Origin: a virus
Direction: 5' to 3' (one strand)
Length of the DNA stretch: 36,216 nt
Virus record (IMG/VR): IMGVR_UViG_3300044624_003023
Coordinates: 1-36,216 of that record
This document shows, piece after piece, positions 18,001 through 36,216 of the stretch; the first letter of the stretch is position 1, and each line of letters opens with the position of its first letter. A model generated the notes under the pieces. It saw only the letters and a list, made by a program, of their open reading frames with translations, did no database searches and was not told the DNA's origin. The translations under genes and the position numbers were made by a program.

Positions 18001-21000
18001 TATAGTAAAGGCGATATAGTAATATTTAAAGGCGAGTATTTTACTGCCGGAGAAAAAATTGCAGCAAGTTCTGATTTTGAATTAGATTATTGGATCAAAA
18101 CAGAATATGATTCTATCAAGAAAGGACTGTTGCCTAACTTAGCAAATCGTGCAGGCTTATCTAAAAACTTCTACGATAGCAATGAAGTTAATCTTGAACA
18201 AGACGCACAAAAGCTTGGTAAGAATTTAATTGGTTTTGAATCTAGAAGCTATATGGAAGATCTAGGCATTAGTGATACTAGTCAATTTAAATTCTATCAA
18301 GGCATGTTAAGTCAAAAAGGTACTAACTCAAGTCTCGATAAGTTGTTAAAAGCTAAAGTCGATAACTTTGGTGGTTACGCCAATGTTTACGAAGAATGGG
18401 CAATACGATTAGGTGCTTATGGTGCAAATGATAGCACACGTAATTTACAGATTGAACTTGACGAGACTTGGGCGGTTAAAGATCCTTTAGTAATCGAACT
18501 ATTAGACGATAACGATGTGATGCCAACTGGTCACAAAGGTTTAAAGAGTAAAGACATCTATATTAAACATATTCCATTTGATAAGAATTTCTTAAATCCT
18601 CGTACTAGCAATTCTAATCCAAATGATTTATATACTGCAGGATATGTTCAGTTAGACGATGTCGATTACACATCACCAACTCGTTCTGCATTAAACAGTT
18701 ATGTACAAGATGCAAATGCGGGAGCAGGCGATCTAATATGGATTGCTGCTGATAGAAATAATCAATGGAATGTCTATCGTATAGATGAAACTGACATTCG
18801 ATTAGAATCAGCTAATATTATTTCAAACGGTAACGCAACAATTCGTTGTGTTAACAATCACGGTTTAGAAAAAAACGATCTAATTTATATTAAATCTGAT
18901 AATACTGTTCCTAGTATGTTTGGGTTCTACACCGTAACAACTATTATAGATGCAAGAACATTTGTAGTTTCAACTGGATACGGCACAGTACAAATTAAAC
19001 CATTTAGTGGTTTTGTTTATAAACTTAAAAATATGCGTTTTGAATCAGCTAGAGAAGTGGCAGCTAACGAACCGCTCAAAGGTTGGAAAACAGGTGATAC
19101 ATTATTCATAGATAAAGCAACTAATTTGGGTTGGAGAATTTATGAAAATCAAGAAGCATATCAAGTTGGTCCAACATTTAAATCAAACTTTAGTAATGAA
19201 AATGATCGTCTAGGATACAGTATTGCAACTGATTTAGAAAACAATTATATGATTGCAGGTCGTCCTGGTTATGACAGCAATCGAGGCGGAGTTGTAATTT
19301 ATAGTATCACTACAAGTGGTACACTTGAAGAAATTGCGAACTTAACAACTGATAGCGACGGGGCAACTGACGTTGGATTTAGTGTAACTATTAGCAACGA
19401 CGCAACATTTGCAGCAGGCGCACCAACATCAGACAATTTAGGATTTGTTGTAACGTTTGCTCCAAGTAATAATACAGGTGATTTTAGAACACAACAAGTA
19501 TTAACATCTGATACTCTAGACGTAGATGGAGAATTTGGATATAGCGTAAAACTAAGCAACGATGGAAATTGGCTAGCAGTTGGTCAACCAGGACAAGAAG
19601 AAGGTTATGTTTATATCTATCAAAGAAGATTTGTTGATATTTTACCATCCGCAACTGCTTCATTTATAGGCGATGGAAGTAGTACTACTTTTACTTTAAC
19701 TGGAAGTGCAGCTAATCCAAATGATACTGATAGTTTAATTGTTGTGCAAGATGGTGTTATTTTAACTGCAACAGTTGATTATAGTATCTCAGGAAGTGAT
19801 TTAGTATTAAGCGCCGCACCTGCATACGGAAGCAGTATATCAGTAACAGTCAACAGAGGTGCTCCTGAGCAAACATATATTTCAGACGGATCAACTAACA
19901 TATTTGCTTTATCAGGAGATAACGCTTCTCCATCGAGCATATATGCACTTTATGTCGAAGCAGACGGAGTAATTCAAGTACCATTTAGAGATTATTCTTT
20001 AACTCTAGTCGGAAGTCAGTATTTTATTGAATTTACTGAAACACCAATAAACAATCTTGAAGTTTATATAACTCAAAGAACTCACTACGAATACGTTACT
20101 GCATTTACAAGCGACAATGCTAACATAGGTGATAGATTTGGACAAACACTTGAATTTACAGAAAATGGTCGTCAACTTATAATTGGTGCGCCAAATACTG
20201 GAATCTTATCCGATGACGGAAGCACAGTTATTAATGCAGGCAAAGTATACGTATATGAACGTACAGCAGAAACATATTACGCAGACGGTTTTGATTCTGT
20301 TTTTGAAACAGTATCTACAATTGAAGGAACTCCATACGTTTATGTTGATGGAATTAGATTAATCGAAGACGAAGATTATACACGTTTTGGAAATATAATT
20401 ACTTTAGCTAATACTCCATCAAGTGGTAGCTTAGTTAAAATTGAAACTAACAATTTCTTATTAACTAGCGAAATAACACCAGAATCTGCAGGTGATGAAC
20501 TTGAAGAAAGTGCCAACTTTGGTGCAAGCATAGTAATTTGTCCAAACAATTGTTCATTGTATATTGGTTCTCCAACTAGAGACTCAAACAATAAAACTAA
20601 TTCTGGAAAAGTATATCGCTTTATCAATCAAGGTCGTTTCTTTGGCCATGTTGATGCTACAGTTGAAAATCCAGTTATTTCTACAAACAGCGTAATAATC
20701 ATAAATGATTTCTTAGTATCACTTGCATCAGGTAGTTCTTTAGATGATATTATACAAGCAATTAACGAAACTCTAATACCAGGTGTTACTGCTTATAACA
20801 ATAATGGCTATTTGTATATTGAAACAAATAGTTTAATTACTGGCGAAAAATTATTAATAGCAAATGGTCTTGGTCAAGCTTTAGAAGATATTGGAATTGA
20901 AATATATCCATATCAGCAAACACTTGATAGTCCACAAGACGATCATTATGTTGAATTTGGAAAAACTCTTGCAATTAGTCCTAGTGCTGATTTGTTAGCA

Positions 21001-24000
21001 GTAGGTAGTTCACGAGCGAGCACTAGAATTGAAATTACAATTGACAATAAAACAACTTACTTTGATTCAAGAGCAACATCATTTAATGATGTTAAGAAGC
21101 AAAGCGGTGCTGTTTGGCTATATCAATTCTTACCTACAGCTAATTCAAGTGTCGAAAATCCTGGCCAATTTATTTCTGCACAACGTTTAATTAATTCTTT
21201 AATTAGTAATCTTGATGAATACGGTTCAAGCATTGCAATTAATCAATCAACAATTTATGTTGGTGCACCTGGAAATGATTCAATTAAAAATAATTCTGGC
21301 ATAGTATTCTCTTTTGAAAACAATAACAATACTAAAAATTGGAGTACAGTCAGAAGCGAAGAATCAAAAGTTGATATTAATTTGATTAATCGTGTGTTCT
21401 TATATAATAAAGAAACTAATCAAATTGTAACAGACTTAGATTACATTGACCCAGTCAAAGGAAAAATTAGCGGCCTCGCTGCACAAGAAATTACATATCA
21501 AACTTCATTTGATCCAGCAATTTATTCCAATAATTCTGCAGGAAGACTGTGGGGCAAAGATCATGTTGGACAAGTTTGGTGGGACATCAGTCAAACACGT
21601 TGGATTGATTACGAACAATCTAATGTAAGTGATCGCGGCATTAACTGGAATACTGCTTTCCCAGGCTCTACTATTATTTGTTACGAATGGGTTGAAAGTA
21701 ACTTGCCTCCATCACAATTTATTGATGAAAAAGATACAACAGCATTTGCTAGATCAAATACTTTTAACTTAGTGTCAGACATTGATCCAAATACTGGAAT
21801 TGTTACTAACAAATATTATTATTGGGTTGCTGGTAAGAGAACTATTCCTCAAATTAAAAATCGCAAATACAGTACAGTTGATTTAGAGAACTTGATTGCA
21901 AATCCTAGGGCAACAGGTATTCCGTTTGCAGCGTTTATTTCTTCAAATTCAATTGCGCTATACAATTGTTCTAGATTGTTGCAAGATAAGAATGTTGTAT
22001 TAAACATTGATTACGATGTAAAATATAATGAAAATTCAATTCATACTGAATTCCAATTACTTTCTGAAAACGATCCAACTAGTGTTCCTAACGACAAAAT
22101 AGTTCAAAAACTTATAGATAGTTTAGCTGGTGCCGATCCTTTAGGTAATCTTGTTCCTGATATTAAACTAACACCAGGTGAACGATATGGTATAGAATAT
22201 CGTCCTCGCCAAACAATGTTCAGAGATCGTAAGCAATCATTAAAAACAGCAATAAGCTATATTAATCGTGTACTATCTCAATTACCTGTAAGAGAAAATA
22301 AAAATACTGCTAACTTGCTAGCATTTGAAGAAATTCCAAATGTTTATGCAAACATGTATGACGATGTTGTCAATGACAATATTGAACTTAGCTATCTTAA
22401 CATTAACTTGTTACCAGATGGCTATAAGATATTAGTTAAAACTGACAATGAAGTAAGCGATAAGTGGACAATTTATGAAAAAAGAAATAACGTTTGGTTG
22501 TTAAACAGAGTTCAAACATTCGATAATCGTCGTTATATTACTACTATTGATTGGATCAAACCTGGCGCTGTAGATCCAGTTGTAACCAATTATACAATTG
22601 ATTATAGCTATCAATTGTCAAGTATTGTTCCAATTTTAGGAGATACTGTAAAAATTAAAGATTCTGGTAATGGTAGATATGCAATATTACAGTATACAAA
22701 TAATAATTATGAAATTATAAAACAAGAAGCAGCAACATATAAAATAATCGATGCAATATGGGAAGAATCAACATTTGCTCAAGGATATGATAGAGAAACA
22801 TTTGATGTCCAAATATATGATGACTGGCCAACAAACGAAATACAAAACATTGTATCCGCTGTATATAATGATATCTTTACTAGCGACGAGCAAATTGAAA
22901 AGAATCGTTGGTTCTTATTAATGATGCAGCATCTACTTGCTGAACAACAGTATGTTGATTGGATCTTCAAAACAAGCTTTATTAAAGTTGAGCATCGCAA
23001 TCAACAAGCAATTAGTAAAATTCCAAGTTTACAGAAAGACAGACAGGACAGCTTACGCAAGTATATTGAAGAAATTAAACCATACCATACAAAGATTCGT
23101 GAATTTGTAACAAGCCACGAAGGATTTGATACTTACGGATCTGACATAACTGATTTTGATATTCCTGCTTACTATAACGAAACAACAGGCAAGTATCGTA
23201 GTCCAACTGGTTTAGATGAAATTGATGACATTATTTTTGATCGTCCTGAATACTATTCTTGGTTGAATAATCATACTTTAGAAGTTGAATCAGTAGTTGT
23301 TCATAATACTGGATCCAGTTACAGCGATCCTCCAATATTAACAATAAATGGTACTACTGGTAGCGGAACTAAACTAGAACCGGTAATTGTTAACGGAGAA
23401 ATTACAAATGTATCTGTAATTAATCCAGGAACAGGATATACAACTACTCCAACTATTGAAATTGGACCATCAAGCGGAAGCGATGCAAAATTAATTCCAA
23501 TAATGGCCAATCGCAAAGTAAGAAGCATTAAAGATGTAATTAAGTTTGATCGTATACCAAATAACGGTGGATTCTTAGTACAATTCTTAGATAGTAATGG
23601 CGATCCAATCGATATTAGAAATCAACGCAAGTCTCGCTTGTTTGGAAGCCACGGTGTAGTTGATGAGTTAATTGACGCTTTAACAATGGATGTTAATAGT
23701 AACACACACTGGATTAAAGAAAGCACAAGTCTAATTAATTGGCCTGTTGAAAATGCTGTAAACTATAGAATATTCCCTGATGATTCAGGACGTATTCAAA
23801 TACAGTACAAGAAAGTACCTGGTGGGTGGACTGCTGAATTACTAGAAACTTATATTCAATCATTAGGATACGAAGTTGGTGTTGATGAACTTGATATTTC
23901 AGAAACTACTGTAGTAGTTGACGGAAATATGAGTTTATATCAACCAACAGTTATGGAGTGGTTAGCTAATACACGTTATGATCGAGGGGATATTATTGTA

Positions 24001-26376
24001 TACAATAATCATGCATATACTTTGCGTGATTCAGTAATCACTACTACAACTGGAGACACTTTTGATTTAACAGATTTTAGAGAATACACTGCAAATGAGT
24101 TTGAAAGTCATTTAAACAGAACATGGACTTACTATCAACCAAAAGAAGGATTGCCAGGTAAAGATTTAGGACAACTGTTTAACGGTATTGAATATCCAGG
24201 GGTAAAAGTTCGTGGTGCAAGCTTTAGAGCAGAGCCTGGATATGATGTCGGTAATTATGATATGGATGGATTAGATCAGTATATTCTTGGACCAGAAGGA
24301 GTTACTGTTCTTGATGAAAGCGTCCTTGATCAAACACTGTACAGCAACTTCCTTGATACAAGTTTAGGCACTAGACCAGAAGATTTAGTAACTTTTGGTG
24401 GGGCATTTGTTGATACGTATTCAAGTCATGCCCCTGAGGAAGCAGTGCCTGGAAGAGTCTACGATACATTGAATATCATGGTTCATACTTTAAGCACTAA
24501 CTTTGTTAATAAGAATTCAGGATTTAGTCCTCAATTTAATGTAAACAAGTATAAGTCAGATGGACTAACTAAAAGATTTAAGTTTATATCAGTAAATCAA
24601 ACACACGTAGGAGATTATTTTATTATATCTTCTGAAATGTATGGACCGCTCTATAGAAAAATAACTGAAACTAACTTTGCTGCACCTACATCTATTGTAT
24701 CAGGCGGTTACTACGACATAGCCCAACAAAGGTCATATTCTGTTGATTGGGCAAACGAAGAAATCGTATTCGATAATTCTTTACCTGTTGGGGATGTGAT
24801 TTCAATTTTAAACATTGGGCAAATTGGTGAAAATGTTATTGCTGATGACTTTTATCAAGCCGATGGGTCAACTGCTGCATTTAGATTTAATGTAAGCTTT
24901 AGTGAACTTGGCGGAGTAATGGCACTAGTAAATGGCACACCTACTATCAATTTTAACGTACAAAATATCAATGGGGAACCTCACGTTATTTTTTATGCAG
25001 CGCCTCCAAGTGGAAGTCATGTACATTTGATTGCAACATTAAATGTTGATTATGCAATTAGTTATGTAAACACACAGTATGCACAAGTTGATAACGACAA
25101 CCGTAGCATAGTATTAAATCGTCAAATTAGAGAAGATCGATCAAAAGATACAGTTATGATTGTTGATTTAAACGGTCGAAGACTAAGACCAGGCAACAGT
25201 ACATATTACATCGGTGATGGCAGCACTACTACATTTTCTTTACCAATATCAGCTGACGATGATTATAGTAACGGTACAGGAAAAGTTAAAATTTGGATAA
25301 ATGGTTTTAACGTCAATGTATCGGACTATACGATTAGCCCTTATGATGGCAGCACTGCACCGCAGGTTACTTTTGTTGTTGCTCCTTTTGAAGGGGATGA
25401 TATAAGCATAACTTACATAGGGGAAGCAGAATACACCTACAACGAAAATACTAGAGAAGTTACAGTTTTAGAAACTATCTATATTCCAGACGGTAGCATG
25501 TTAGCAGTTACAGCGTTTAGTCACCACGATGCTTATAAATTTAAGACAAAGATATTTAAAGGCGTAGATTTCTCTACAGCAAGCATTGATGTTACTCTTG
25601 GATTTGGTTTAGGCTTATTTGATGCTGAAGATACTGCTTTTGATGCAAGCTACAGTGTAACAAAAGCAATTGGTCAAAGCTATCAAATTGACGAAGATCA
25701 AAATAATGCTGAAAAGATTTTTATAAGTGTAGCCGGTCAAACATTAATGGCAGGATACGATTATACAGTTACAAACGGTAAAATTTTACTTTCAGATAAT
25801 ATTGTTGTTCGTAATGACACTTTAATTATTGTCACTTGGATGAGTGCCGCAACCTACATTAGTGCAACTACATTTAGACTCTTTAAAGATTTAAATGATA
25901 ATTTTTATTATAACAGAGTTGCTCTAGCTGATGCGGCCATTTTAACTAAAGAATTAAAAATAACTGACACTGAAATACACGTAAATAATGCTGATGCATT
26001 AGGAATACCAAATCCAAATAAAAACGTTCCAGGGGTAATTTTCATTGGCGGAGAAAGAATAGTATTCTGGCAAAAAAATGGAAATGTGCTTTCTCAAATT
26101 AGAAGAGGTACAGCGGGTACCGCCGCAAGTATACTTTATGCTGAGGGTAGCATAGTTGTTGATGCAAGTAATAAATCTAAAATTCCAAACGGTGAAATCA
26201 GCACATGGTATGATTTAGGGGAAGAAGGCCCTACTAACGGTGAAGGATTAATACTTTCAGGTACAATTCAAGCAAGATTCCTTAAAGAAAGCAAGGGCAT
26301 TATACCGTTCTTAAGTGCAATACAAATTGGAGGATATATTTTACCAGGGTATGTATTAGATCAATATTTCTCATAA
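12013..26376 (+). CDS. Giant modular baseplate/virion structural protein (gp7 position, 4787 residues)
   Basis: One open frame of 14.4 kb, over four times the length of T4 gp7 (1032 residues), which occupies this place after gp6. A Shine-Dalgarno GGAGG (11998-12002) stands 10 bases before the ATG. The N-terminus (YRRSLDFLPSVFRTEVNDKF) and blocks such as RPWEMLGFVEKPIWWEL (1486) and LRKYIEEIKPYHTKIREF (3681) resemble large structural proteins of marine T4-like phages. Modules in order: CBM5/12-like motifs at W344, W1991 and W3983; a beta module at about 2269-2325; a seven-bladed FG-GAP propeller at about 2400-3105 with inserted domains; a G-x-x-Y-x-x-P-P repeat pair at 3766-3820; and DGS-type beta modules at about 2550-2822 and 4281-4477. 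The C-terminus has an IGGERIVFWQK segment (about 4678). No transmembrane or enzymatic motif was seen. It probably bridges wedge and fibres; that is inference. Confidence 0.75.
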   Translation: MAYRRSLDFLPSVFRTEVNDKFLHATIDQLISEPELKRVDGYVGRKFSPVAGSTDSFINELTELRQDYQLEPHTNFIDSTNKVKFSSGYVDLLRRIDALGGFTNDHSRLFTDDTYNYDGFIDFDKFLNYSSYYWLPNGPDAVTIFATAVPLQQDYVVTPPKLYQIVNGEYEKENFDTLAFDVSENVVTRVRQDGIRFNVTGNKINPTIRLARGGVYKFIVEQIGHGFFIQTQPGTTDELAWQNNLSSRDVYGVENNGEDVGVITFKVPETNAQDFFSRMPVFTSANLTAHSSRRGRDLRYNEIHYQKYSDILEKFGGIDGQIMLEGKTVVFPRDPASGKNPQPWNESTEYNEGDLIQYGNTVYRVLESFKSGQVFNDSKLELYDLQQTWYNPDPFDSVERPFDSVGFDIGQSVEFEQRRGLFDITVNADGYVVLIPGVVVPRNNKVKILEGISYGNKALYRDSNDDILLVKPTTADLTRLYYADSLDPNIGGTIELIEQDNNLKIDVVGSILNQKSYESPNDVIFTNGLKIKFLQDVVQQEYANKSYYVEGVGESIKLVDVDSLIANEPWLDTIEKPFDITSFDTDSFSASSNSPLNPNYFVINRSSIEKSAWTRHNRWFHSDVIELTSKYNNFTTVIESTNRAKRPILEFDPNLQLYNFGQKSKKAIDAIDRVTIDALSTVEGQPVTINESNVVYFTGSLSAVNNFKDEKTKEGYTLVSETTSDDGVVTIQMKLFGLGGFYVDDIPLFPGMRVIFTADNDADVRNKIYEVQWINPQSETDDRVWSFTLDGSTTSYDLNYNVTEPSRLQVFVNGINASSQGYYWSYLAETQSLVFSSTIPPEDSNLTISLEFDEQIHLVLAEDGNVIEGECVYVKQGLTNQGKMFHLINGDWTESQQKTKVNQPPLFELYNQSKISYSDSSTYNSTSFIGNKLFGYEIGSSNTDPILGMKLKYRNINNIGDIVFSDFITKGNFTYRQGQQSINESTIGAKVRVNDEYGNFYFRNQWRKIRQKSRQAQLQTYYATDYQKNLFKLNALPDGIKENKFTNIIVYVNNNLLYNNHYDLQIEDDIAYLLIDNDLNVGDKLDIKVYSSVINDASIFEVPYNFTNNPFNKEITDVTLGQMRNHIIRCVEDAPNLSDEPLSIYNVRDTFDIKTFRGSILQHNGATHLANFFLNDSQANFINSVINAQREYVRFKNRFLQLVGEVAVVNESATATLERVMSEIVANKNKNFAYFTSDMLPFGNDYNKRIYKVFDTRLDTYDLSDMFNLSMPSEKAVLVYLNNRQLLVNRDYTFSIERPIVELDLTQVTLNENDIIEIREYVSTDGSYIPPTPTKLGLYPLFVPAIIQDGYGDNSRSMIRGHDGSLTAMFNDSRDDTLLEFETRIYNNIKATYNDYRFDIWDYIPGAFRTTDYNLTEFNSILSSHFSAWSGSNAISVSDYRQFVSGDAFTYNYGRFTNRIDGNLMPASSWRGIYKYYFDTDAPHLRPWEMLGFVEKPIWWELSYGPAPYTSGNTVLWGDIEAGRILYGDRAGIDDRFARPGLNKIIPVSENGELLSPFDCIAKNINELDVSGFFKFGDIGPVEAAWRQSSEYPFVLQIAIAIMKPAEYFGVNIDANRQVLDLLDQQEIFSDTGTREISNQLVQNEIDKNGNVYRANSYLTWISEYCKSRGFDVTAALGNKLRNLESRLGYKVGGYTDKKYLRIITEQYTPASNNPGVIIPDDDFDIVLNKSAPIYNLTYSGVIVTKTVDGYSVTGYDDNKPYFTIESSSQNNNKSYIKVGKLAVTKFHDGTGDFYRVPYGTEFFSIDQVADFFISYGRYLTRQGFQFIDKLDSDASWYQDWDLAVREFLFYVQQGWDVDVAISLSPVGNKINYRSNFGTVDGLSNRPLNTRILDEDFKIVRASEYTVYRNGRDFNANVDSDRGIYLIDLDVVEYEHVIIFNNKTRFNDIIYDPVIGDRQHRLRLQGFKTGSWDGTYSAAGFIINEDNVEEWRPGVNYSKGDIVIFKGEYFTAGEKIAASSDFELDYWIKTEYDSIKKGLLPNLANRAGLSKNFYDSNEVNLEQDAQKLGKNLIGFESRSYMEDLGISDTSQFKFYQGMLSQKGTNSSLDKLLKAKVDNFGGYANVYEEWAIRLGAYGANDSTRNLQIELDETWAVKDPLVIELLDDNDVMPTGHKGLKSKDIYIKHIPFDKNFLNPRTSNSNPNDLYTAGYVQLDDVDYTSPTRSALNSYVQDANAGAGDLIWIAADRNNQWNVYRIDETDIRLESANIISNGNATIRCVNNHGLEKNDLIYIKSDNTVPSMFGFYTVTTIIDARTFVVSTGYGTVQIKPFSGFVYKLKNMRFESAREVAANEPLKGWKTGDTLFIDKATNLGWRIYENQEAYQVGPTFKSNFSNENDRLGYSIATDLENNYMIAGRPGYDSNRGGVVIYSITTSGTLEEIANLTTDSDGATDVGFSVTISNDATFAAGAPTSDNLGFVVTFAPSNNTGDFRTQQVLTSDTLDVDGEFGYSVKLSNDGNWLAVGQPGQEEGYVYIYQRRFVDILPSATASFIGDGSSTTFTLTGSAANPNDTDSLIVVQDGVILTATVDYSISGSDLVLSAAPAYGSSISVTVNRGAPEQTYISDGSTNIFALSGDNASPSSIYALYVEADGVIQVPFRDYSLTLVGSQYFIEFTETPINNLEVYITQRTHYEYVTAFTSDNANIGDRFGQTLEFTENGRQLIIGAPNTGILSDDGSTVINAGKVYVYERTAETYYADGFDSVFETVSTIEGTPYVYVDGIRLIEDEDYTRFGNIITLANTPSSGSLVKIETNNFLLTSEITPESAGDELEESANFGASIVICPNNCSLYIGSPTRDSNNKTNSGKVYRFINQGRFFGHVDATVENPVISTNSVIIINDFLVSLASGSSLDDIIQAINETLIPGVTAYNNNGYLYIETNSLITGEKLLIANGLGQALEDIGIEIYPYQQTLDSPQDDHYVEFGKTLAISPSADLLAVGSSRASTRIEITIDNKTTYFDSRATSFNDVKKQSGAVWLYQFLPTANSSVENPGQFISAQRLINSLISNLDEYGSSIAINQSTIYVGAPGNDSIKNNSGIVFSFENNNNTKNWSTVRSEESKVDINLINRVFLYNKETNQIVTDLDYIDPVKGKISGLAAQEITYQTSFDPAIYSNNSAGRLWGKDHVGQVWWDISQTRWIDYEQSNVSDRGINWNTAFPGSTIICYEWVESNLPPSQFIDEKDTTAFARSNTFNLVSDIDPNTGIVTNKYYYWVAGKRTIPQIKNRKYSTVDLENLIANPRATGIPFAAFISSNSIALYNCSRLLQDKNVVLNIDYDVKYNENSIHTEFQLLSENDPTSVPNDKIVQKLIDSLAGADPLGNLVPDIKLTPGERYGIEYRPRQTMFRDRKQSLKTAISYINRVLSQLPVRENKNTANLLAFEEIPNVYANMYDDVVNDNIELSYLNINLLPDGYKILVKTDNEVSDKWTIYEKRNNVWLLNRVQTFDNRRYITTIDWIKPGAVDPVVTNYTIDYSYQLSSIVPILGDTVKIKDSGNGRYAILQYTNNNYEIIKQEAATYKIIDAIWEESTFAQGYDRETFDVQIYDDWPTNEIQNIVSAVYNDIFTSDEQIEKNRWFLLMMQHLLAEQQYVDWIFKTSFIKVEHRNQQAISKIPSLQKDRQDSLRKYIEEIKPYHTKIREFVTSHEGFDTYGSDITDFDIPAYYNETTGKYRSPTGLDEIDDIIFDRPEYYSWLNNHTLEVESVVVHNTGSSYSDPPILTINGTTGSGTKLEPVIVNGEITNVSVINPGTGYTTTPTIEIGPSSGSDAKLIPIMANRKVRSIKDVIKFDRIPNNGGFLVQFLDSNGDPIDIRNQRKSRLFGSHGVVDELIDALTMDVNSNTHWIKESTSLINWPVENAVNYRIFPDDSGRIQIQYKKVPGGWTAELLETYIQSLGYEVGVDELDISETTVVVDGNMSLYQPTVMEWLANTRYDRGDIIVYNNHAYTLRDSVITTTTGDTFDLTDFREYTANEFESHLNRTWTYYQPKEGLPGKDLGQLFNGIEYPGVKVRGASFRAEPGYDVGNYDMDGLDQYILGPEGVTVLDESVLDQTLYSNFLDTSLGTRPEDLVTFGGAFVDTYSSHAPEEAVPGRVYDTLNIMVHTLSTNFVNKNSGFSPQFNVNKYKSDGLTKRFKFISVNQTHVGDYFIISSEMYGPLYRKITETNFAAPTSIVSGGYYDIAQQRSYSVDWANEEIVFDNSLPVGDVISILNIGQIGENVIADDFYQADGSTAAFRFNVSFSELGGVMALVNGTPTINFNVQNINGEPHVIFYAAPPSGSHVHLIATLNVDYAISYVNTQYAQVDNDNRSIVLNRQIREDRSKDTVMIVDLNGRRLRPGNSTYYIGDGSTTTFSLPISADDDYSNGTGKVKIWINGFNVNVSDYTISPYDGSTAPQVTFVVAPFEGDDISITYIGEAEYTYNENTREVTVLETIYIPDGSMLAVTAFSHHDAYKFKTKIFKGVDFSTASIDVTLGFGLGLFDAEDTAFDASYSVTKAIGQSYQIDEDQNNAEKIFISVAGQTLMAGYDYTVTNGKILLSDNIVVRNDTLIIVTWMSAATYISATTFRLFKDLNDNFYYNRVALADAAILTKELKITDTEIHVNNADALGIPNPNKNVPGVIFIGGERIVFWQKNGNVLSQIRRGTAGTAASILYAEGSIVVDASNKSKIPNGEISTWYDLGEEGPTNGEGLILSGTIQARFLKESKGIIPFLSAIQIGGYILPGYVLDQYFS
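19189..21327 (+). other. FG-GAP beta-propeller region inside the giant protein
   Basis: Seven copies of the integrin-type FG-GAP motif (F/Y-G-x-S-v-x-i-s-x-d-g-x-x-l-a-v-G-a-P) start near residues 2400, 2455, 2508, 2709, 2836, 2982 and 3070. Examples are FGYSVKLSNDGNWLAVGQPG and YGSSIAINQSTIYVGAPG, each followed by a strand such as GYVYIYQ or GKVYVYE. Seven is the number in a closed propeller. Gaps between blades 3-4, 4-5 and 5-6 are much longer and hold inserted beta modules. FG-GAP propellers usually act in protein or glycan binding; here binding to the host or to fibres is inferred. Confidence 0.75.
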
Positions 26377-26401: not shown

Positions 26402-29400
26402 ATGACATTAGTATTGAGGAAAGATACCTTAACTCCATTAAGTTACGAGCAAATGGACGGAAACTTCGAGTTTCTACAAACCGAAATTACCCAGTTACAA
26501 TCTGGTCTCGGTATTTCTCCTGAATATATACGTGGTTTATTTTCAGGTGGCCCAGGAATTACTTATAATAGTGCTACTGGTGAAATTGAGTTTACGGGCG
26601 GATCCAGTGTTGTTACTTCAATCAATGGACAAACAGGTGCAGTAACCTTAACTGGAGCTGATCTAGATATCACCACAAGTGAAATTAATGAAGGAATTAA
26701 CAAATATTTTACTGCAACTCGAGCCTGGGATGCAGTTAATGATAAAATCAACGTAGCGCCAGGTTTAACAAAAACTTATAATGTAAATGGATTTACAATT
26801 GCTCCACGTAACTTTAACATTGCGTTGGTCGGTGATGTTGTGGGTTCTGCTAGAGTTACAGAATTAAATGATATTGTTATTGATACTAGTCTTTTTGGTA
26901 TTACTATTGATGCCTCAAATGTTACTGTAACTGAAGGTGTTATTGTTCGTAGCCCTCCAACAGTTCCAGGCACACGCAGATTTACTGGTTTAGATTTTGA
27001 TCCGGCTGACTTCTTAGTCACTGATGCAGGCTCTTTTGCTAAAATTACATCTCGTCAAAATGATAGTGCAGTAATTGAAATTGTTGGTAACGCAATGAGC
27101 GGTGCCGTTTTTGGAGATGTTACTGAAACTGAAAGTGGTATTAGCGTTACTTTTGATCCAGAAAATGGATCAATTAGAATTTCCCCGAGAGATTTTACAA
27201 TTAGATTAACTGGCGCAGTAACAGGAGAAGCTACTGTTAGTCGTTTACGTGATGTAACAATTAATACAATTAACAGTAATGGATACATTAAGGGCATCGA
27301 TGCCTATAGTGATGTTAACAAAGTTAATATTGAACCACTTACTGAAGTACAATTTGATGTTAATGCTTTTACTATTAACGCTATTAACAAGCGTTTGTTT
27401 ATTAGTCCAAAGAATGCGCTAAGTCCACAAGATGTTCGTGACATCATTGGTAATACAGTACAAGGTACTGAACAAGATGTTGATCTAAGCACTATTACTG
27501 AAACAGGTATCATAGTAACATATGACAGAGACAATAACACATTAAGTGTTGCTCCGCGTAACTTCACTATTACCTTAGATGGAGCAGTTGGTGGCAGTGT
27601 AACTATATCTCGACTTCAAGATGCAACTTTAGTTGCAACTAACATTAATGAATACATATCAGGTCTTGATATGTATAGCGATGTAAATCAAGTAAACACT
27701 AAAAAAATTACTGAAGTACAATTTGGATTAAATGCATTTGATATTACCAGTGTTGGTAACCGTGCGTTTATAGATCTTAAAAATGCGCTTACGCCACAAG
27801 ACGTAAGAGATATTATTGGTAATACAGTACAAGGTACTGAACAAGATGTTGACTTAAGCACAATTACTGAAACAGGTATCATAGTAACATATGACAGAGA
27901 CAATAACACATTAAGTGTTGCACCAAGAAACTTTACAATTACCTTAGCTGGAGCAGTTAGCGGTAGTGCTACTATTAGTCGTTTACAAGATGTAACACTT
28001 ACAACAAACAACATCAATAATTATATCGCCGGTTTAGATGTATTCAGCGATGTAAATCAAGTAAACACATCAAAAATTACTGAAATACAGTTTGATACGA
28101 ATGATTTTGGCGTTAGTTCTGTAGATGATAGAGCTTATCTAAGAATTAAAAATGCACTAAGTCCCCAAGATGTTCGTGACATCATTGGTAATACAGTACA
28201 AGGCACTGAACAAGATGTTGACTTAAGCACAATTACTGAAACAGGTATCATAGTAACATATGACAGAGACAATAACACATTAAGTGTTGCACCAAGAAAC
28301 TTTACAATTACAATTGATGGTGCAGTAAGCGGACAAGCTACTATTAGTCGTTTACAAGATGTAACACTTACAACAAACAACATCAATAATTATATTGCCG
28401 GTTTAGATGTATTCAGTGATGTAAACAAAGTTAATGTAAACAAGATTACTGAGTTTAGTTTCAATTTAGATCAATTTGCAGTAACAGCAAATAACAATAG
28501 AGCTAACATTGAATTAGCAGGAATACTAAGTCCACAAGATATTAGGGACATTATCGGCGATACTGTTAGTGGTACTGAACGTGATGTTGATTTATCAACA
28601 CTTACTGAAACAGGTATTATTGTAACCTACGATAGAAGTAATAACACATTAAGTGTTGCTCCACGTAATTTCACAATTACAATTGATGGTGCGGTAAGCG
28701 GGCAAGCTACAATTACTCGTTTACGTGATGTAACACTTACAACAAACAACATCAACAACTACATATCAGGACTTGATGTTTATAGCGATGTTAATAAAGT
28801 TAACTCAAATAAAATTACTGAATTAAGTTTTGATCTAAATCAATTTATTGTTACAGCAAGTAATAATAGAACAAATATTTCTATTGGAGATATCTTAAAT
28901 CCACAAGATATTAGGGACATTATTGGTGATACTGTTAGTGGTACTGAGCGTGATGTTGATCTGTCAACACTTACTGAAACTGGTATTATTGTAACCTATG
29001 ACAGAGATAACAACACATTAAGTGTAGCACCTCGTAATTTCACAATTACAATTGATGGTGCAGTTTCAGGTAGTGCTACAATTACTCGTTTACGTGATGT
29101 AACATTAACCACTAACAATATTAACAACTACATCTCAGGACTTGATGTTTATAGTGATGTTAATAAAGTTAACTCAAATAAAATTACTGAATTAAGTTTT
29201 GATCTAAATCAATTTATTGTTACAGCAAGTAATAATAGAACAAATGTAGCATTAACAGGAATATTAAACTCACAAGATATCAGAGACATTATTGGTGATA
29301 CTGTTACTGGTACTGAAAGAGATGTTGATCTATCAACTCTTACTGAAACCGGTATTATTGTAACATATGACAGAGATAACAACACATTAAGTGTTGCTCC

Positions 29401-32239
29401 AAGAAACTTCACTATTACAATTGATGGTGCAGTCAGCGGGCAAGCTACAATTACTAGATTACGTGATGTAACATTAACCACAAACAATATTAACAACTAC
29501 ATATCAGGACTTGATGTTTATAGCGATGTAAACAAAGTAAACGTATCTAAGATAAACGAAATTAGTTTTGACTTAAATCAATTTATTGTTACAGCAGATG
29601 ATAACAGAACAAATATTTCTATTGGAAATATATTAAATCCACAAGATATCAGAGACATTATTGGTGATACTGTTACTGGTACTGAACGTGATGTTGACTT
29701 AAGTACAATTACTGAAACTGGTATTATTGTAACATATGACAGAGATAACAACACATTAAGTGTAGCACCTCGTAATTTCACAATTACAATTAATGGAGCG
29801 GTGAGCGGCAGTGCTACTATTAGTCGCTTGAGAGATGTAACACTTACTACCAATAACATCAATAATTACATATCAGGTATTGATGTTTACAGTGATGTTA
29901 ATAAAGTTAACGTATCTAAGATAAACGAAATTAGTTTTGATCTAAATCAATTTATTGTTACAGCAGATGATAATAGAACAAGTATTTCTATAGGCGATAT
30001 CTTAAATCCACAAGATATTAGAGATATTATTGGCAATACTATTAGTGGTACTGAACGTGATGTTGACTTAAGCACAATTACCGAAACAGGTATTATTGTA
30101 ACATATGACAGAGACAATAACACATTAAGTGTAGCACCTCGTAATTTCACAATTACAATTGATGGAGCAGTAAGCGGTAGTGCTACTGTCTCACGTTTGG
30201 GCGACGTAACACTTACAACAAATAATATTAACAACTACATATCAGGGCTCGATGTTTATAGCGATGTAAACAAAGTCAATATTGAAAAAATTACTAACTT
30301 AAAATTCAATATGGACGATTTTATAGTACAAGCTAGTCAAAATCAAGCTACACTATCTTTAAAGAATATTTTAAGCACGTCAGACGTAAAAGACATTATT
30401 GGTAATACTATTTTAGGAACAGAAAACTCTTCTGACTTAAGTTCTCTTACTGAAACTGGTATAATTGTAAGTTATAATACAGACAATCAAAGTTTAAGTA
30501 TTGCTCCAAGAAACTTTACTATTACTTTAGAAGGTGCGGTTACTGGTAGTGCTACAATACGTAAATTGAGAGATGTTGTACTAACAACTTATAACACTAA
30601 CAATTACATATCAGGACTAGATTTATTCGAAGGTTCAAATAAATCGAATATATCCAAGATTACTGAGTTAGAATTTGATGAAGTTAATTTTGATGTTAAC
30701 GCTACTAATCAAAGAACAGTTGTTACATTAAAGAATCAATTATCAACTACTGACATAAGAAATATAATTGGGCAAACTGTTACTGGAACAGAAATGAGTG
30801 CTGACTTAAGCACTCTTACTGAAACAGGTATTATTGTAAGTTATAGCAAAGCAAATGGTACATTAAGTATAGCTCCACGTAATTTTACTATTAATTTAAC
30901 CGGAGCAGTTACAGGTAGTACTACAATTACTAGACTAGGTGATGCTACTATTAATGTTTTAAACAGCAATAATTATATTTCTGGTCTAGACATTTACGAT
31001 GGTGTAGATAAAAAGAACATTACACCTATTAAGTCTATTGTTTTTGACCCAGCACAGTTTACTATTACAACAGATGGTACAGCAGCTAACGTTCAATTTA
31101 ACAACCCAATTGATAGCCAAGCGGTTAGAGATATTATTGGAACAACTGTATTAGGTGAATCTCGAGATCCTGTTACCGGAAGAGTAAGCGAAACAGGCAT
31201 TTTAATAACTTATGATTCTGATAACAATACATTAAGTGTAGCACCACAAGATTTCTCTATTACATTAATTGGTGATGTAAGCGGTACTGCAACTATTAGT
31301 AAATTACGTAGTGCAACAATACAAACTACTACTACTGCTATTAAAGGTCTAGGTATATCATCAAATAGTGTTCCTTTTGATAGCGGAGTTAAAAATCTTA
31401 ACTTTAGTTCAAACTTTACTTTAACTCGCGATGCTTCCACAAATACACTTGCTGTTGATGTTTCTAATTTACTTAATACAAACCAAGTATTATCGATTGT
31501 TGGAGGAGCATTAACTGGTAGTCAAAATGGTATAGCAGTAGGTTATAACAGCAATGAAAGACAATTTAGCTATAATTTAGCAAACTTAGAAGTAAACCTA
31601 CAAGGTGCTATTAACGGTGCTGCTACATTAGAATATTCAGGAACAGGCACACAAACACTTAACATTGTAACTGAAATTGGTGAAATTGGTTCAGGACTTG
31701 ATGTTAAGGATGAGGGTGAAACAAAAGGCACAAGCGTTACAGCTATTAACTTCGTTGGCGGTGGCGTCACTACTGCTGTTAGCATGGATGGTTCTATTGC
31801 TACAGTAAGCATTCCAAACAGCCCAGCCGCAGAAAAATTCTTGCTTATTGATAACGGTAGCGCCAACGTTCCAAACGCAAGAAGGCTTGTTGCAGGTACA
31901 GGTATCGTACTTTCAGACAGCGGCGCAGGTGATGATTTTGTTATCAGTGCCAGCGGCGGCGAAGTACTTGGCAAAGTTCAAATTACATATGATGGCGATA
32001 TTGTTGATGAAGTCCCAACTGTAAACTTTATTGATAGCCAACAAGTATTTTTTGACGTTACAAGCGACGGATCAACAAATAAAGTTAATGTAACAGCGTA
32101 TAGCTTGTTAAACGGTTGGTATAGGAAGACTCAAATAAACAATGGCACGTTGACGGATAAATATGGTAATAGCTTAGATATGGGACCAATTATTGGTGGC
32201 ATTATCGAAAATCAAATTAACCTTGGGGATATAGCATGA
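26402..32239 (+). CDS. Repeat-built tail-fibre-like protein 1 (1945 residues)
   Basis: The N-terminus (LRKDTLTPLSYEQMDGNFEF) contains the P-L-S/T-x-x-x-x-D-x-N-F motif often found at the virion-binding end of phage fibres. Residues about 220-1700 are a tandem array of 123-residue units (see the repeat entry). Each unit has VRDIIG, then TETGIIVTYD, NNTLSVAPRNFTIT, GAVSGSATISRLRDVTL, NNYISGLDVYSDVNKVN and a closing KITELSFDLNQF segment. The C-terminal 250 residues differ: NARRLVAGTGIVLSDSGAG (about 1819), then a Gly-rich end. No peptidase, chaperone or catalytic motif was seen. The composition (Asn/Thr/Ile/Asp-rich, almost no Cys) suits a trimeric beta fibre shaft. A ribosome site AAAGGA and a late box lie upstream. 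The gene overlaps the next one (ATGA), so both are translated as a pair. Confidence 0.8.
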   Translation: MTLVLRKDTLTPLSYEQMDGNFEFLQTEITQLQSGLGISPEYIRGLFSGGPGITYNSATGEIEFTGGSSVVTSINGQTGAVTLTGADLDITTSEINEGINKYFTATRAWDAVNDKINVAPGLTKTYNVNGFTIAPRNFNIALVGDVVGSARVTELNDIVIDTSLFGITIDASNVTVTEGVIVRSPPTVPGTRRFTGLDFDPADFLVTDAGSFAKITSRQNDSAVIEIVGNAMSGAVFGDVTETESGISVTFDPENGSIRISPRDFTIRLTGAVTGEATVSRLRDVTINTINSNGYIKGIDAYSDVNKVNIEPLTEVQFDVNAFTINAINKRLFISPKNALSPQDVRDIIGNTVQGTEQDVDLSTITETGIIVTYDRDNNTLSVAPRNFTITLDGAVGGSVTISRLQDATLVATNINEYISGLDMYSDVNQVNTKKITEVQFGLNAFDITSVGNRAFIDLKNALTPQDVRDIIGNTVQGTEQDVDLSTITETGIIVTYDRDNNTLSVAPRNFTITLAGAVSGSATISRLQDVTLTTNNINNYIAGLDVFSDVNQVNTSKITEIQFDTNDFGVSSVDDRAYLRIKNALSPQDVRDIIGNTVQGTEQDVDLSTITETGIIVTYDRDNNTLSVAPRNFTITIDGAVSGQATISRLQDVTLTTNNINNYIAGLDVFSDVNKVNVNKITEFSFNLDQFAVTANNNRANIELAGILSPQDIRDIIGDTVSGTERDVDLSTLTETGIIVTYDRSNNTLSVAPRNFTITIDGAVSGQATITRLRDVTLTTNNINNYISGLDVYSDVNKVNSNKITELSFDLNQFIVTASNNRTNISIGDILNPQDIRDIIGDTVSGTERDVDLSTLTETGIIVTYDRDNNTLSVAPRNFTITIDGAVSGSATITRLRDVTLTTNNINNYISGLDVYSDVNKVNSNKITELSFDLNQFIVTASNNRTNVALTGILNSQDIRDIIGDTVTGTERDVDLSTLTETGIIVTYDRDNNTLSVAPRNFTITIDGAVSGQATITRLRDVTLTTNNINNYISGLDVYSDVNKVNVSKINEISFDLNQFIVTADDNRTNISIGNILNPQDIRDIIGDTVTGTERDVDLSTITETGIIVTYDRDNNTLSVAPRNFTITINGAVSGSATISRLRDVTLTTNNINNYISGIDVYSDVNKVNVSKINEISFDLNQFIVTADDNRTSISIGDILNPQDIRDIIGNTISGTERDVDLSTITETGIIVTYDRDNNTLSVAPRNFTITIDGAVSGSATVSRLGDVTLTTNNINNYISGLDVYSDVNKVNIEKITNLKFNMDDFIVQASQNQATLSLKNILSTSDVKDIIGNTILGTENSSDLSSLTETGIIVSYNTDNQSLSIAPRNFTITLEGAVTGSATIRKLRDVVLTTYNTNNYISGLDLFEGSNKSNISKITELEFDEVNFDVNATNQRTVVTLKNQLSTTDIRNIIGQTVTGTEMSADLSTLTETGIIVSYSKANGTLSIAPRNFTINLTGAVTGSTTITRLGDATINVLNSNNYISGLDIYDGVDKKNITPIKSIVFDPAQFTITTDGTAANVQFNNPIDSQAVRDIIGTTVLGESRDPVTGRVSETGILITYDSDNNTLSVAPQDFSITLIGDVSGTATISKLRSATIQTTTTAIKGLGISSNSVPFDSGVKNLNFSSNFTLTRDASTNTLAVDVSNLLNTNQVLSIVGGALTGSQNGIAVGYNSNERQFSYNLANLEVNLQGAINGAATLEYSGTGTQTLNIVTEIGEIGSGLDVKDEGETKGTSVTAINFVGGGVTTAVSMDGSIATVSIPNSPAAEKFLLIDNGSANVPNARRLVAGTGIVLSDSGAGDDFVISASGGEVLGKVQITYDGDIVDEVPTVNFIDSQQVFFDVTSDGSTNKVNVTAYSLLNGWYRKTQINNGTLTDKYGNSLDMGPIIGGIIENQINLGDIA
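27068..31483 (+). repeat. Tandem array of 369-bp coding repeats in fibre 1
   Basis: Using the codon before V-x-D-I-I-G as anchor, units start at 27068, 27431, 27800, 28169, 28538, 28907, 29276, 29645, 30014, 30383, 30752, 31121 and, degenerate, 31484. Ten successive intervals (27431 to 31121) are exactly 369 bp (123 codons); the two flanking ones are 363 bp. Units 2-9 are the most alike; those from 30383 diverge. A further degenerate half unit with APRNFNIALVGDVVG lies upstream near 26795. Nearly identical DNA stretches occur between neighbours, for example 28787-28876 and 29156-29245. Confidence 0.95.
32156..32163 (+). promoter_or_regulatory. Possible late promoter box inside the end of fibre 1
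   Basis: GATAAATA lies 72 bases before the fibre 2 ATG, within the coding sequence of fibre 1 (as Asp-Lys-Tyr). It could give fibre 2 its own late transcript, but the long leader is unlike the other late boxes and the match may be chance. Confidence 0.25.
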
Positions 32240-35200
32240 GCAGTGAATTAAGACTACGCAGAGGTACAGATACTCAGCATGACAGCTTTACAGGTGCAGA
32301 AGCTGAAGTAACAGTGAATACAACTAATAAAAGTGTTCACGTACATGATGGCACAACAACAGGTGGGTTTGAACTTGCTCGTTCAGACTTAAACAACGTT
32401 GATGATGCAGTATTTGCTGCTAAAGCAGCTTCTGCTGGTATTAGTGGCGGCGGCGATTTTATTAGTACGATTACTGGGATAACAAAAGCAAATCCTGCTG
32501 TAGTTACTGTTTCAACAAGCCACGGTTATGTTGATGGGCAACAAGTAACAATTACTGGCGTTGGCGGCATGACCCAAGTTAACGGAATAACTTTTTATGT
32601 TAATGTATTAACTGCTACAACATTTTCTCTTTATTCTGATATTGCTCTAACAACTACAGTTAACAGCACTAGTTATACAACATATACAAGTGGTGGCGAA
32701 GCTGCAGGTAGCGTAAGTGCTGGTGCCCCAATCAGTGCAAGCTATGTAACAATTAATGCTGAATCTGGCATGCCAAATGAACGTAGATTACAAGCTGGCA
32801 CAGGTTTAACTTTAACTGACGGCGGAGCAGGTGGTGCAGTTTCTCTTGCTGCTAACTTAGCTGCTACTGCCCCAAGCAATTTAGGTAGCGCAAACGCAGG
32901 TGTAAGCAATGTAATAGCTAGAGCAGATCACGTACACGCTATGCCAATTGCTTCAGATGTTGGTGCAGTTCCTACTGCACGTACTGTTTCCGCTGGTACT
33001 GGTTTATCAGGCGGCGGAGCACTTAGCTCAAACATAACTCTAAGTTTAAATGCTAATTTACATATGTTAACTGACGTTACAATAGGCACACTTGCTAATG
33101 GTGACGTAATAATGTACAATGAAGCAACTGGAGTATTTGAAAATTCAAACACTTTTGCTAAAAGCTCAATTCTTTTAAACAACACTAACGTTGCTGTAAA
33201 TTCAATTACTAAATTTAACTTTATTGGTACTGGTTTATCAGCAACCGTAAACGGAACAGATGCAACTAGAATAGATTTAAACTTCACTGGCTTGTTAGAC
33301 GCCGAAGGTGTACAGGATATTGTTGGTGCTATGGTAGAAAGTAATACTGAAAACGGTATTGCTGTAACATACGATGATGCTAACGCTAAGATAAATTTTG
33401 ACGTAAATGACCCGGTTATCACATTAAGTGGCGATGTAACCGGAACCGCTACTATGACCAACTTAGGCAATGTTACTATTTCAACAACAATTGCTGCTAA
33501 TAGTGTGGCATTAGGTTCAGACACAACTGGTAACTATGTTGCTACAATTACGGGTGCAAACGGAATAAGTGTTACTGGAAGTGGAGTAGAAAGTGCTGCT
33601 ATTACACTTGAAATAAACCCAACTGAAGGCAACTTTGTTGAAGCTATGCAAGACCTAGTTGGTACTATGGTTTCTGGCAATAGCGAAAGCGGTATTGCGG
33701 TTACTTACAATGATACATTAGGTAAATTAGATTTCGCAGTTGGTAATCCTACTGTTACATTAAGTGGCGCTGTAACAGGCGCTGCTACTATTACTAACTT
33801 AGCAAATGCAACTATTACAACAAGTATAGCTGAAAATGCTGTAGCACTTGGTACAAATACAACTGGTAATTATGTTGCTACTGTAGCTGCTAATGCTACT
33901 TCTGGATATGGTGGTATAGTTGTAAGTGGTAGTGGTAGTGAAACTGCTGCTGTAACAATTGGTATCAATCCAGCTAACTCTGATTTTATTGAAGGCGTGC
34001 AAGATATTGTAGGCGGTATGGTAGAAAGTAATACTGAAAATGGTATCGCTGTAACATATGATGACAATACAGGCAAATTAAATTTTGATGTTGCTGATCC
34101 AGTAATTACTGTTTCAGGTGCAGTCTCTGGTAGTGCTACTATGACCAACTTAGGCAATGTTACTATTACAGTAACACAAGCTAACGATAGTGTAGCACTA
34201 GGCACAAATACAACTGGTAACTATGTTGCTACTGTTGCTGCTAATGCTACTACTGGATTTGGTGGTATAACAGTAAGCGGAAGCGGAAGCGAAACTGCTG
34301 CTGTAGTAATTGGTATCAATCCAGCTAACACTGATTTCATTGAAGGCATTCAAGATATCGTTGGCGGTATGGTTGAAACAAACACCGAATCAGGTATTTC
34401 TGTAACATACGATGATCTTAATGGAAAATTAAATTTTGATGTTGCTGATCCAGTAATCACACTTAGTGGCGATGTAACTGGTAGTGCTACAATGACTAAT
34501 TTAGGCAACGTAACAATTGCTGCTACGATTGCTGCCAATAGTGTAGCATTGGGTACTGACACAACCGGTAACTACATTGCTACTGTTGCTGCCAATGCCA
34601 CTGCTGGATATGGTGGTATAGTTGTAAGTGGAAGTGGTAGTGAAACTGCTGCTGTAACAATTGGTATTGATCCAGCCAATGCTGACTTCATTGAAGGCGT
34701 ACAAGATGCTGTAGGTGGCATGGTTACTGGTAATACTGAGAATGGTATTGCCGTAACATATGATGACGCAACAGGTAAGTTAAATTTTGATGTGGCAGAT
34801 CCAGTAATCACACTTAGTGGTGATGTAACTGGTAGTGCTACAATGACTAATTTAGGTAACGTTACAATTACCACTACAATTGCTGCTAATAGTATTGAAC
34901 TTGGCACTGACACAACCGGTAACTATGTTGCCACAATTACTGCTGGATCAGGTATAACTATAGCAAATGCTGGCGTTGAAAACGCTAACGTTACTATATC
35001 TGTTAATCCAAGTGAAGCGGGACTACTAGAAGCTTTACAAGATGTTGTTGGTGGTATGGTTGAAACAAATACCGAATCAGGTATTTCTGTAACTTACAAT
35101 GATGCTACAGGTAAACTTGACTTTGACGTTGCTGATCCAGTTATCACTCTTAGTGGTGATGTAACTGGTAGTGGAACATTAACTAACTTGAGTAACCTTA

Positions 35201-36216
35201 CTATTACCACTACAATTGCTGCTAATAGTGTAGCATTGGGTACTGACACAACCGGCAATTATGTTGCTACTGTTGCTGCAAATGCTACTACTGGGTATGG
35301 TGGTATAACAATAAGTGGTAGTGGTAGTGAAACTGCTGCTGTTACAATTGGTATTGATCCAGCCAATGCTGACTTTATTGAAAATATTCAAGACATTGTT
35401 GGCGGTATGGTAGCAACTAATACTGAGAACGGTATTGCAGTAACTTATAATGATACTACAGGTAAACTTGATTTTGACGTTGCAGATCCAGTAATCACAC
35501 TTAGTGGTGATGTAACTGGTAGTGCCACAATGACCAACTTAGGTAACGTTACTATTACTGCTACTATTGCTGCTAATAGCGTAGCACTTGGAACAGACAC
35601 AACCGGCAATTATGTAGCGACTATAGCTGCTAACGCTACTACTGGATATGGTGGTATAACAATAAGCGGAAGCGGCAGCGAAAATGCTGCTGTTACAATT
35701 GGTATTGATCCATCAAACGCAGATTTTATTGAAAACATGCAAGATTTAATTGGTGGTATGGTTTCTACCAACACTGAAAATGGTATTGCAGTTACATATA
35801 ATGATTCTACTAATAAACTAGATTTTGACGTTGGTGATTTTACAATCACACTAACTGGTGATGTAACTGGCGTTGGCACAGTTACTAACTTAGCTAACGT
35901 AAGTTTTGCAACTACTATTCAACCAAATAGCGTTGAACTTGGTACTGATACTACCGGTAACTACATTGCTACAATAGCAGCAAATGCAACTACTGGGTAT
36001 GGTGGTATAGTTGTAAGTGGAAGTGGTAGTGAAACTGCTGCTGTTATAATTGGTATCAATCCAGCTAACGCTGACTTTATTGAAGGTATTCAAGACATTG
36101 TAGGTGGTATGGTTGAAACAAATACCGAATCAGGTATTTCTGTAACTTACAATGATACAACAAATAAATTAAACTTAGATGTGGCTGATCCAGTAATCAC
36201 ACTTAGTGGAGATGTA
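32236..36216 (+). CDS. Repeat-built tail-fibre-like protein 2 (at least 1327 residues, open at window end)
   Basis: Starts at an ATG overlapping the previous stop (ATGA), with GGGGA (32225-32229) as ribosome site, and stays open to the last base. The N-terminus (SELRLRRGTDTQHDSFTGAE, then HVHDGTTTGGFELA) is the fibre head module also found in Mtd-type receptor-binding proteins and in many marine phage fibres. Residues about 76-135 hold a beta module with HGYVDGQQVTITGVGGM resembling the E1_FCCH-like domains of virion proteins. Residues about 178-195 (NERRLQAGTGLTLTDGG) match a block near the C-terminus of fibre 1. From about residue 357 an array of 117- or 112-residue units begins, with VQDIVGGMV, ENGIAVTYDD, ITLSGDVTGSATMTNLGNV and LGTDTTGNYVATVAANA. 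The receptor-binding tip is outside the window. Confidence 0.85.
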   Translation, partial: MSSELRLRRGTDTQHDSFTGAEAEVTVNTTNKSVHVHDGTTTGGFELARSDLNNVDDAVFAAKAASAGISGGGDFISTITGITKANPAVVTVSTSHGYVDGQQVTITGVGGMTQVNGITFYVNVLTATTFSLYSDIALTTTVNSTSYTTYTSGGEAAGSVSAGAPISASYVTINAESGMPNERRLQAGTGLTLTDGGAGGAVSLAANLAATAPSNLGSANAGVSNVIARADHVHAMPIASDVGAVPTARTVSAGTGLSGGGALSSNITLSLNANLHMLTDVTIGTLANGDVIMYNEATGVFENSNTFAKSSILLNNTNVAVNSITKFNFIGTGLSATVNGTDATRIDLNFTGLLDAEGVQDIVGAMVESNTENGIAVTYDDANAKINFDVNDPVITLSGDVTGTATMTNLGNVTISTTIAANSVALGSDTTGNYVATITGANGISVTGSGVESAAITLEINPTEGNFVEAMQDLVGTMVSGNSESGIAVTYNDTLGKLDFAVGNPTVTLSGAVTGAATITNLANATITTSIAENAVALGTNTTGNYVATVAANATSGYGGIVVSGSGSETAAVTIGINPANSDFIEGVQDIVGGMVESNTENGIAVTYDDNTGKLNFDVADPVITVSGAVSGSATMTNLGNVTITVTQANDSVALGTNTTGNYVATVAANATTGFGGITVSGSGSETAAVVIGINPANTDFIEGIQDIVGGMVETNTESGISVTYDDLNGKLNFDVADPVITLSGDVTGSATMTNLGNVTIAATIAANSVALGTDTTGNYIATVAANATAGYGGIVVSGSGSETAAVTIGIDPANADFIEGVQDAVGGMVTGNTENGIAVTYDDATGKLNFDVADPVITLSGDVTGSATMTNLGNVTITTTIAANSIELGTDTTGNYVATITAGSGITIANAGVENANVTISVNPSEAGLLEALQDVVGGMVETNTESGISVTYNDATGKLDFDVADPVITLSGDVTGSGTLTNLSNLTITTTIAANSVALGTDTTGNYVATVAANATTGYGGITISGSGSETAAVTIGIDPANADFIENIQDIVGGMVATNTENGIAVTYNDTTGKLDFDVADPVITLSGDVTGSATMTNLGNVTITATIAANSVALGTDTTGNYVATIAANATTGYGGITISGSGSENAAVTIGIDPSNADFIENMQDLIGGMVSTNTENGIAVTYNDSTNKLDFDVGDFTITLTGDVTGVGTVTNLANVSFATTIQPNSVELGTDTTGNYIATIAANATTGYGGIVVSGSGSETAAVIIGINPANADFIEGIQDIVGGMVETNTESGISVTYNDTTNKLNLDVADPVITLSGDV
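33304..36216 (+). repeat. Tandem array of 351/336-bp coding repeats in fibre 2
   Basis: Taking the Glu codon of E-G-x-Q-D as anchor, units start at 33304, 33640, 33991, 34342, 34693, 35029, 35380, 35731 and 36082. Intervals are 336, 351, 351, 351, 336, 351, 351 and 351 bp. The two short units lack five codons in the second half, where NATTGYGGI is replaced by a shorter segment ending in a GVE-type turn. The array continues past the window. Confidence 0.95.

Follow-up and report, generated by a model that had tools for sequence, protein, structure and literature searches.

The fibre locus and its surroundings

The DNA analysed here, hereafter the window, is an entire IMG/VR virus record, 36,216 bases long; it is a linear contig without end repeats and probably a fragment. 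Its gene order runs from structural genes through genes for gp25-like and gp6-like baseplate wedge proteins and a 4787-aa structural protein to two adjacent genes for fibre-like proteins, F1 and F2, whose reading frames overlap by 4 bp (Table 1). The nearest relatives of the gp6-like protein are those of jumbo myoviruses, e.g., Agrobacterium phage Atu_ph07 (490 kb) and Salmonella phage Munch (350 kb), with 33-36% identity. Downstream of its gp6-like gene, Atu_ph07 has a 13.35-kb structural gene at the position corresponding to that of the window's 4787-aa protein, and the annotation beyond it lists short genes and no long repeat-fibre pair. The 4787-aa protein itself shows two matches to CBM5/12 (chitin-binding type) domains and one to an FG-GAP repeat.

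Table 1. Features of the window; the two repeat-unit halves are given by one example per fibre.
Feature	Position	Strand	Basis
Late-transcription sigma factor	195-986	minus	PHROG 12791, E 1e-81
gp25-like baseplate wedge protein	8158-8526		profile match
gp6-like baseplate wedge protein	8581-12009		profile match
4787-aa structural protein	12013-26376		PHROG 10938, E 4e-303
F1, fibre-like protein, 1945 aa	26402-32239	+	ORF
F1 repeat array, units of 369 bp, the 13th degenerate	about 27047-31813	+	unit mapping
F1 shared half (helix, GI-V-TY hairpin, ITI-GAVSG core; aa 960-1028)	29279-29485	+	
F1-specific second half (NNYISGLDVYSDVNKVN...NISIGNILNPQD; aa 1029-1082)	29486-29647	+	
F2, fibre-like protein, at least 1327 aa, ORF runs off record end	32236-36216	+	ORF
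Mtd_N domain, F2 N-terminus	32251-32358	+	Pfam PF18454, E 2.5e-12
E1_FCCH-like domain, F2, after Mtd_N	32491-32700	+	Pfam PF16190, E 8.5e-10, above cut-off
F1-like second half (AKSSILLNNTNVAVNSITKFNFIGTGLSATVNG...) ahead of first F2-type head, putative mixed junction	approx. 33157-33288	+	read directly from sequence
F2 repeat array, units of 336 or 351 bp (112 or 117 aa), cut by record end	about 33265-36216	+	unit mapping
F2 shared half (aa 934-993)	35035-35214	+	
F2-specific second half (LGTDTTGNYVATVAANATTGYGGITISGSGSETAAVTIGI; aa 994-1050)	35215-35385	+	

Between a non-repetitive N-terminal region and a unique C-terminus, F1 has 12 units of 123 aa and then a degenerate 13th one, the spacing being constant at 123 aa except at this last unit; the copies are about 70-82% identical in DNA. 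Tandem Repeats Finder independently called the F1 array at 27419-30295 (period 369) and that of F2 at 33691-36216 (period 351). The two arrays reported in the initial annotation are thus real, with the proviso that the start given there (27431) is slightly late, the first array beginning near 27047.

The Mtd_N domain of F2 scores 46.9 bits against a curated cut-off of 26.3 and also matches PDB 1yu0 (E 4e-9). The E1_FCCH-like stretch recurs in proteins of Vibrio, Xanthomonas, Klebsiella, and Pelagibacter phages. Stretches resembling the mixed junction likewise start the F2 array in four related contigs introduced below (L009, L015, L016, L094), one of which (L009) encodes a complete F2 orthologue of 1622 aa, whose C-terminal domain belongs to PHROG 22593/19602. 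At positions 12249-13733 of L009 there is, in addition, a 494-aa protein, the last ~150 residues of which are similar to the C-terminus of F2 (QYADLAERY/F...GTVV); judging from the sequences, this C-terminal domain is a second shared module in neighbouring genes of L009, namely those for F2 and the 494-aa protein. A number of further matches were judged to be chance similarities to repeats of biased sequence: those of the F2 repeats to Pfam DUF3846, DUF5417, and oestrogen receptor (the first two nonetheless above their cut-offs), those of the F1 repeats to THP2, SafA, and HisG, and NCBIfam matches to MerP and choline-binding families, which fall far below cut-off.

A shared half and a fibre-specific half

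We divided the units of both arrays into a head (a helix and a GI-x-V-x-Y hairpin), a core (ITL-x-G-x-V-x-G...), a loop, and a final hairpin. The motifs that had been quoted for the two arrays are all present in F1 and F2 units. Profile alignment of the first halves with hhalign returns a highly significant match (E 7e-17, 45% identity over 60 columns) and none for the second halves, such that the initial description of each repeat as a common half joined to a fibre-specific half stands. The shared part accounts for about 60-69 residues of the 112-123-aa unit. The mean identity between F1 and F2 units of the window is 51% in the core (shuffled control 22%) and 40% in the head (19%), as against 12% in the loop (14%) and 18% in the final hairpin (13%); the second halves of the two fibres show no match above chance. 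Both arrays are recognized by the profile of PHROG 30390, a phage family of unknown function (F1: E 3e-35, 8 stretches; F2: E 6e-92, 9 stretches). The best stretch listed for F1 places residues 483-536 on positions 55-111 of the profile, i.e., the shared half only, with the F1 second half lying outside it, while that for F2 places residues 793-921 on positions 22-146, spanning both halves. F2 units match this family and PHROG 356 (minor tail protein) over both head and connector, the segment that follows the head.

AlphaFold monomer models, which are unreliable for F1 (mean pLDDT 48.6) and moderate for F2 (72.9, pTM 0.35), were used solely for the order of elements. This predicted order is the same in both units, viz., helix, four strands, irregular stretch, hairpin, and next helix, and the structural difference may therefore be nearer in size to a loop of 25-30 residues than to an entire half.

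Conservation of the pair and whole-unit change

The F1-F2 pair was recovered in six other IMG/VR contigs, namely L009 (also recorded as L089; 79 kb), L015 (608 kb), L016, L019, L023, and L094 (240 kb); as L019 and L023 are near-identical, these count as five viruses besides the window. In all six the F1 gene immediately precedes that of F2 on one strand, the L016 copy of F1 being cut by the contig end. F1-type units are rare, occurring in these same contigs: a pattern scan from a single F1 query found nothing, one with an F1 alignment found one contig, and tblastn searches of INPHARED detected no F1-type protein in any record. F2-type units are common, with 238 candidate stretches in viral contigs encoding a relative (the best 80 of which were kept), and the tail fibres of the Synechococcus phages S-CBS4 and BUCT-ZZ01 and the Roseobacter phage CRP-603 contain F2-like stretches with 58-71% identity over 20-35% of a two-unit query. 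In the F2 arrays of L009 (6675-11543) and L094 (10217-14386), connectors of one kind are combined with two head subtypes, an IQDIVG-x-MV... and a ...DVAALMF / DIAATLF type.

The F1 orthologue of L009, taken over the whole gene, is 1586 aa long. Towards the ends of the array positional orthologues can be paired (heads 9, 10, and 11 of the window with heads 6, 7, and 8 of L009), and the middle units multiply within a lineage, a pattern that appears to be one of whole-unit duplication and homogenization within each gene. L019 and L023, the sole close variant pair found (about 98.5-99% identical), differ in F1 by exactly one 366-bp unit, the two L023 copies of which are 98.6% identical, and in F2 by exactly 345 bp; either difference in unit number could be produced by repeat collapse in metagenome assembly. 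The identical flanks of the F2 difference have 188 bp in common, from which the crossover can be placed in and beside the shared half.

The reading that we favour, with a probability of roughly 0.75, is that F1 and F2 are an old paralogous fibre pair with uniform arrays that change by whole units, and with no current trading of the fibre-specific part. They would be neighbouring fibre proteins, probably homotrimeric and baseplate-associated, of a large T4-like (jumbo-type) myovirus, which have stayed side by side in related viruses. The shaft would be a tandem array, in which a short helix and two β-hairpins ending in the ITL-x-G-x-V-x-G core provide the shared scaffold, followed by a loop specific to the fibre and a last hairpin that connects to the next helix. 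Recombination between copies would keep each array uniform and lengthen or shorten it by whole units, and the fibre-specific part would have been either substituted long ago or have diverged after the duplication, as opposed to being traded between F1 and F2 now. Family names and genomic context are what suggest the fibre role, the trimeric state, the shaft role, the place at the baseplate, and any function of the variable part or contact with the host.

Origin of the second halves and proposed exchange between the fibres

It is possible, though somewhat unlikely in our estimate, that the second halves are homologous too, having diverged beyond recognition after the duplication and never having been replaced. 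The predicted strand order common to both units, including the final hairpin before the helix, would be consistent with this, as would a weak similarity of distant F1-type connectors to F2-type connectors (E 0.004, with ~1-2% of column shuffles as good). However, the similarity of second halves is not significant against block shuffles that keep the local strand pattern (17/150, 4/150, 13/200), nor is their profile match when enriched alignments from several viruses are used. The faster evolution of the loop that was sought among F1 orthologues was not seen: in five pairs of positional orthologues the loop is conserved like the head (84% versus 83% identity), and the corresponding values for F2, from two pairs only, are 83% and 82%, with a lower 56% for the hairpin. 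Further, where first halves are 39-43% identical, the second halves of F1 proteins from distant viruses retain 20-25% identity (z 2.4-4.6), as against 11% (z -0.4) for F1 versus F2 in one virus. This matched-identity comparison tilts the balance towards an old replacement, albeit with few viruses and short segments.

Beyond the pair itself, a survey of connectors covering 142 units from 59 contigs resolved 9-13 clusters at E 1e-3 to 1e-6, with more than one cluster present in 15 of the 31 multi-unit proteins; since the units were picked by similarity to F2 units, these proportions are not population estimates. For example, L024 has two heads with 90% identity followed by connectors with 13% identity, and in the F2 of L019 the head occurs once before an LGTNTQGNYVA connector and once before a GDTMTGALSLNAAPTSNMHAATKAYVD connector. 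With F2-type heads preceding many unrelated connectors, module re-use across phages is real, and the anticipated joining of the common half to other second halves is borne out for the F2-type version, even within one protein. A more specific proposition is that the conserved half acts as a DNA-level landing site for recombination, with crossovers among near-identical copies of that half adding, dropping, or bringing in different second halves. This draws on the F2 difference between L019 and L023 (one possible event) and on the many head-connector combinations across phages, and we regard it as doubtful; were it true, the fibres of these viruses would evolve by cassette assortment on a fixed scaffold.

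The initial annotation had gone further in proposing that half-units are actively exchanged between the two fibres, forming a shaft scaffold with a putative swappable face, which we now consider highly unlikely. Several observations are compatible with such exchange: F2-type heads of other phages that are 84-90% identical carry unrelated second halves, connector types are mixed within the proteins noted above, an F1-like second half precedes an F2-type head at the start of F2, and the crossover between L019 and L023 falls within the 188-bp identical stretch. Nevertheless, in a tree built from 56 internal heads (window, L009, L015, L016 with F2 only, L019, and L094) a single branch with 100/100 support separates F1 from F2 fully, so that no exchange of the shared half between them is detectable; on this tree the F1/F2 label requires one change, versus 18 in shuffles, and the virus label 20. 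The head alignment is short (61 columns), and single rearrangements deep within a group could hence escape detection. The tree leaves out the three terminal short-headed F1 units and the N-terminal F1 heads of L015 and L019; an earlier tree with those heads had placed the N-terminal head of L019 and all three short-headed units outside the F1 group. The DNA of the shared halves is ~61% identical between F1 and F2, near the 53-58% of codon-shuffled controls. Moreover, neither type of array was found to have a second half of the other fibre's type in its interior, and F1 and F2 connectors form separate clusters at E 1e-3 or stricter; a lenient clustering (E 0.01) merged the two types via weak links, and the stricter cut-offs were adopted after inspection of the bridging matches. 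When close relatives were scanned for replaced cassettes, no clean case emerged, just whole-unit or unrelated differences. The recent changes observed are of whole units, and the proposed exchange between these two fibres is not supported.

There is a very slim chance that the shared half is a convergent β-rich motif common in phage fibres and of no common origin. The core (ITL-x-G-x-V-x-GSA) does resemble the C-terminus of the phage L decoration protein Dec (E 6e-4 over 37 positions) and is hence widespread, but the similarity between F1 and F2 extends through the helix, two hairpins, and core, and both arrays match a single PHROG. The least credible alternative is that the arrays or their homogeneity are artefacts of assembly, which can collapse or multiply repeats in a linear contig of this kind, as the F1 copies differ enough in DNA to be easily distinguished and arrays of the same design were assembled in six other contigs.

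The closest precedent is offered by phage T4, in which gp34 (proximal long tail fibre) and gp12 (short tail fibre) share a mixed α-β repeat whose core is conserved and whose loop, variable in length, is not, their domains being described as mixed, matched, and duplicated (PMC5537660). As with F1 and F2, these are two fibre proteins of one phage with a common repeat; their repeats are shorter (about 33-47 aa) and no sequence match was found. Among solved fibre structures in the PDB, F1 has no match, and the F2 array matches just the C-terminal part of Dec (PDB 6e3c), where ARTITLTGAVTGSASFDGSANVTIETT resembles the shared-half core. That part of Dec has been modelled after gp34 as a trimeric three-stranded β-helix, a model its authors call speculative (PMC6449081), and, unlike the arrays of F1 and F2, it is present in a single copy on a capsid protein. 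The Bordetella phage protein Mtd has the N-terminal Mtd_N domain alone in common with F2, the C-terminal domain of the F2 orthologue being unlike that of Mtd. Given that T4 already provides fibre repeats that are re-used and combine a conserved core with a variable loop, we see in F1-F2 no new kind of system and no live swapping system, but a well-preserved instance of the ordinary modularity of phage fibres. Its occurrence in six viruses, the window included, provides a repeated natural case for telling the scaffold of a fibre repeat from its freely changing part, and links a common phage-fibre repeat with large T4-like myoviruses.
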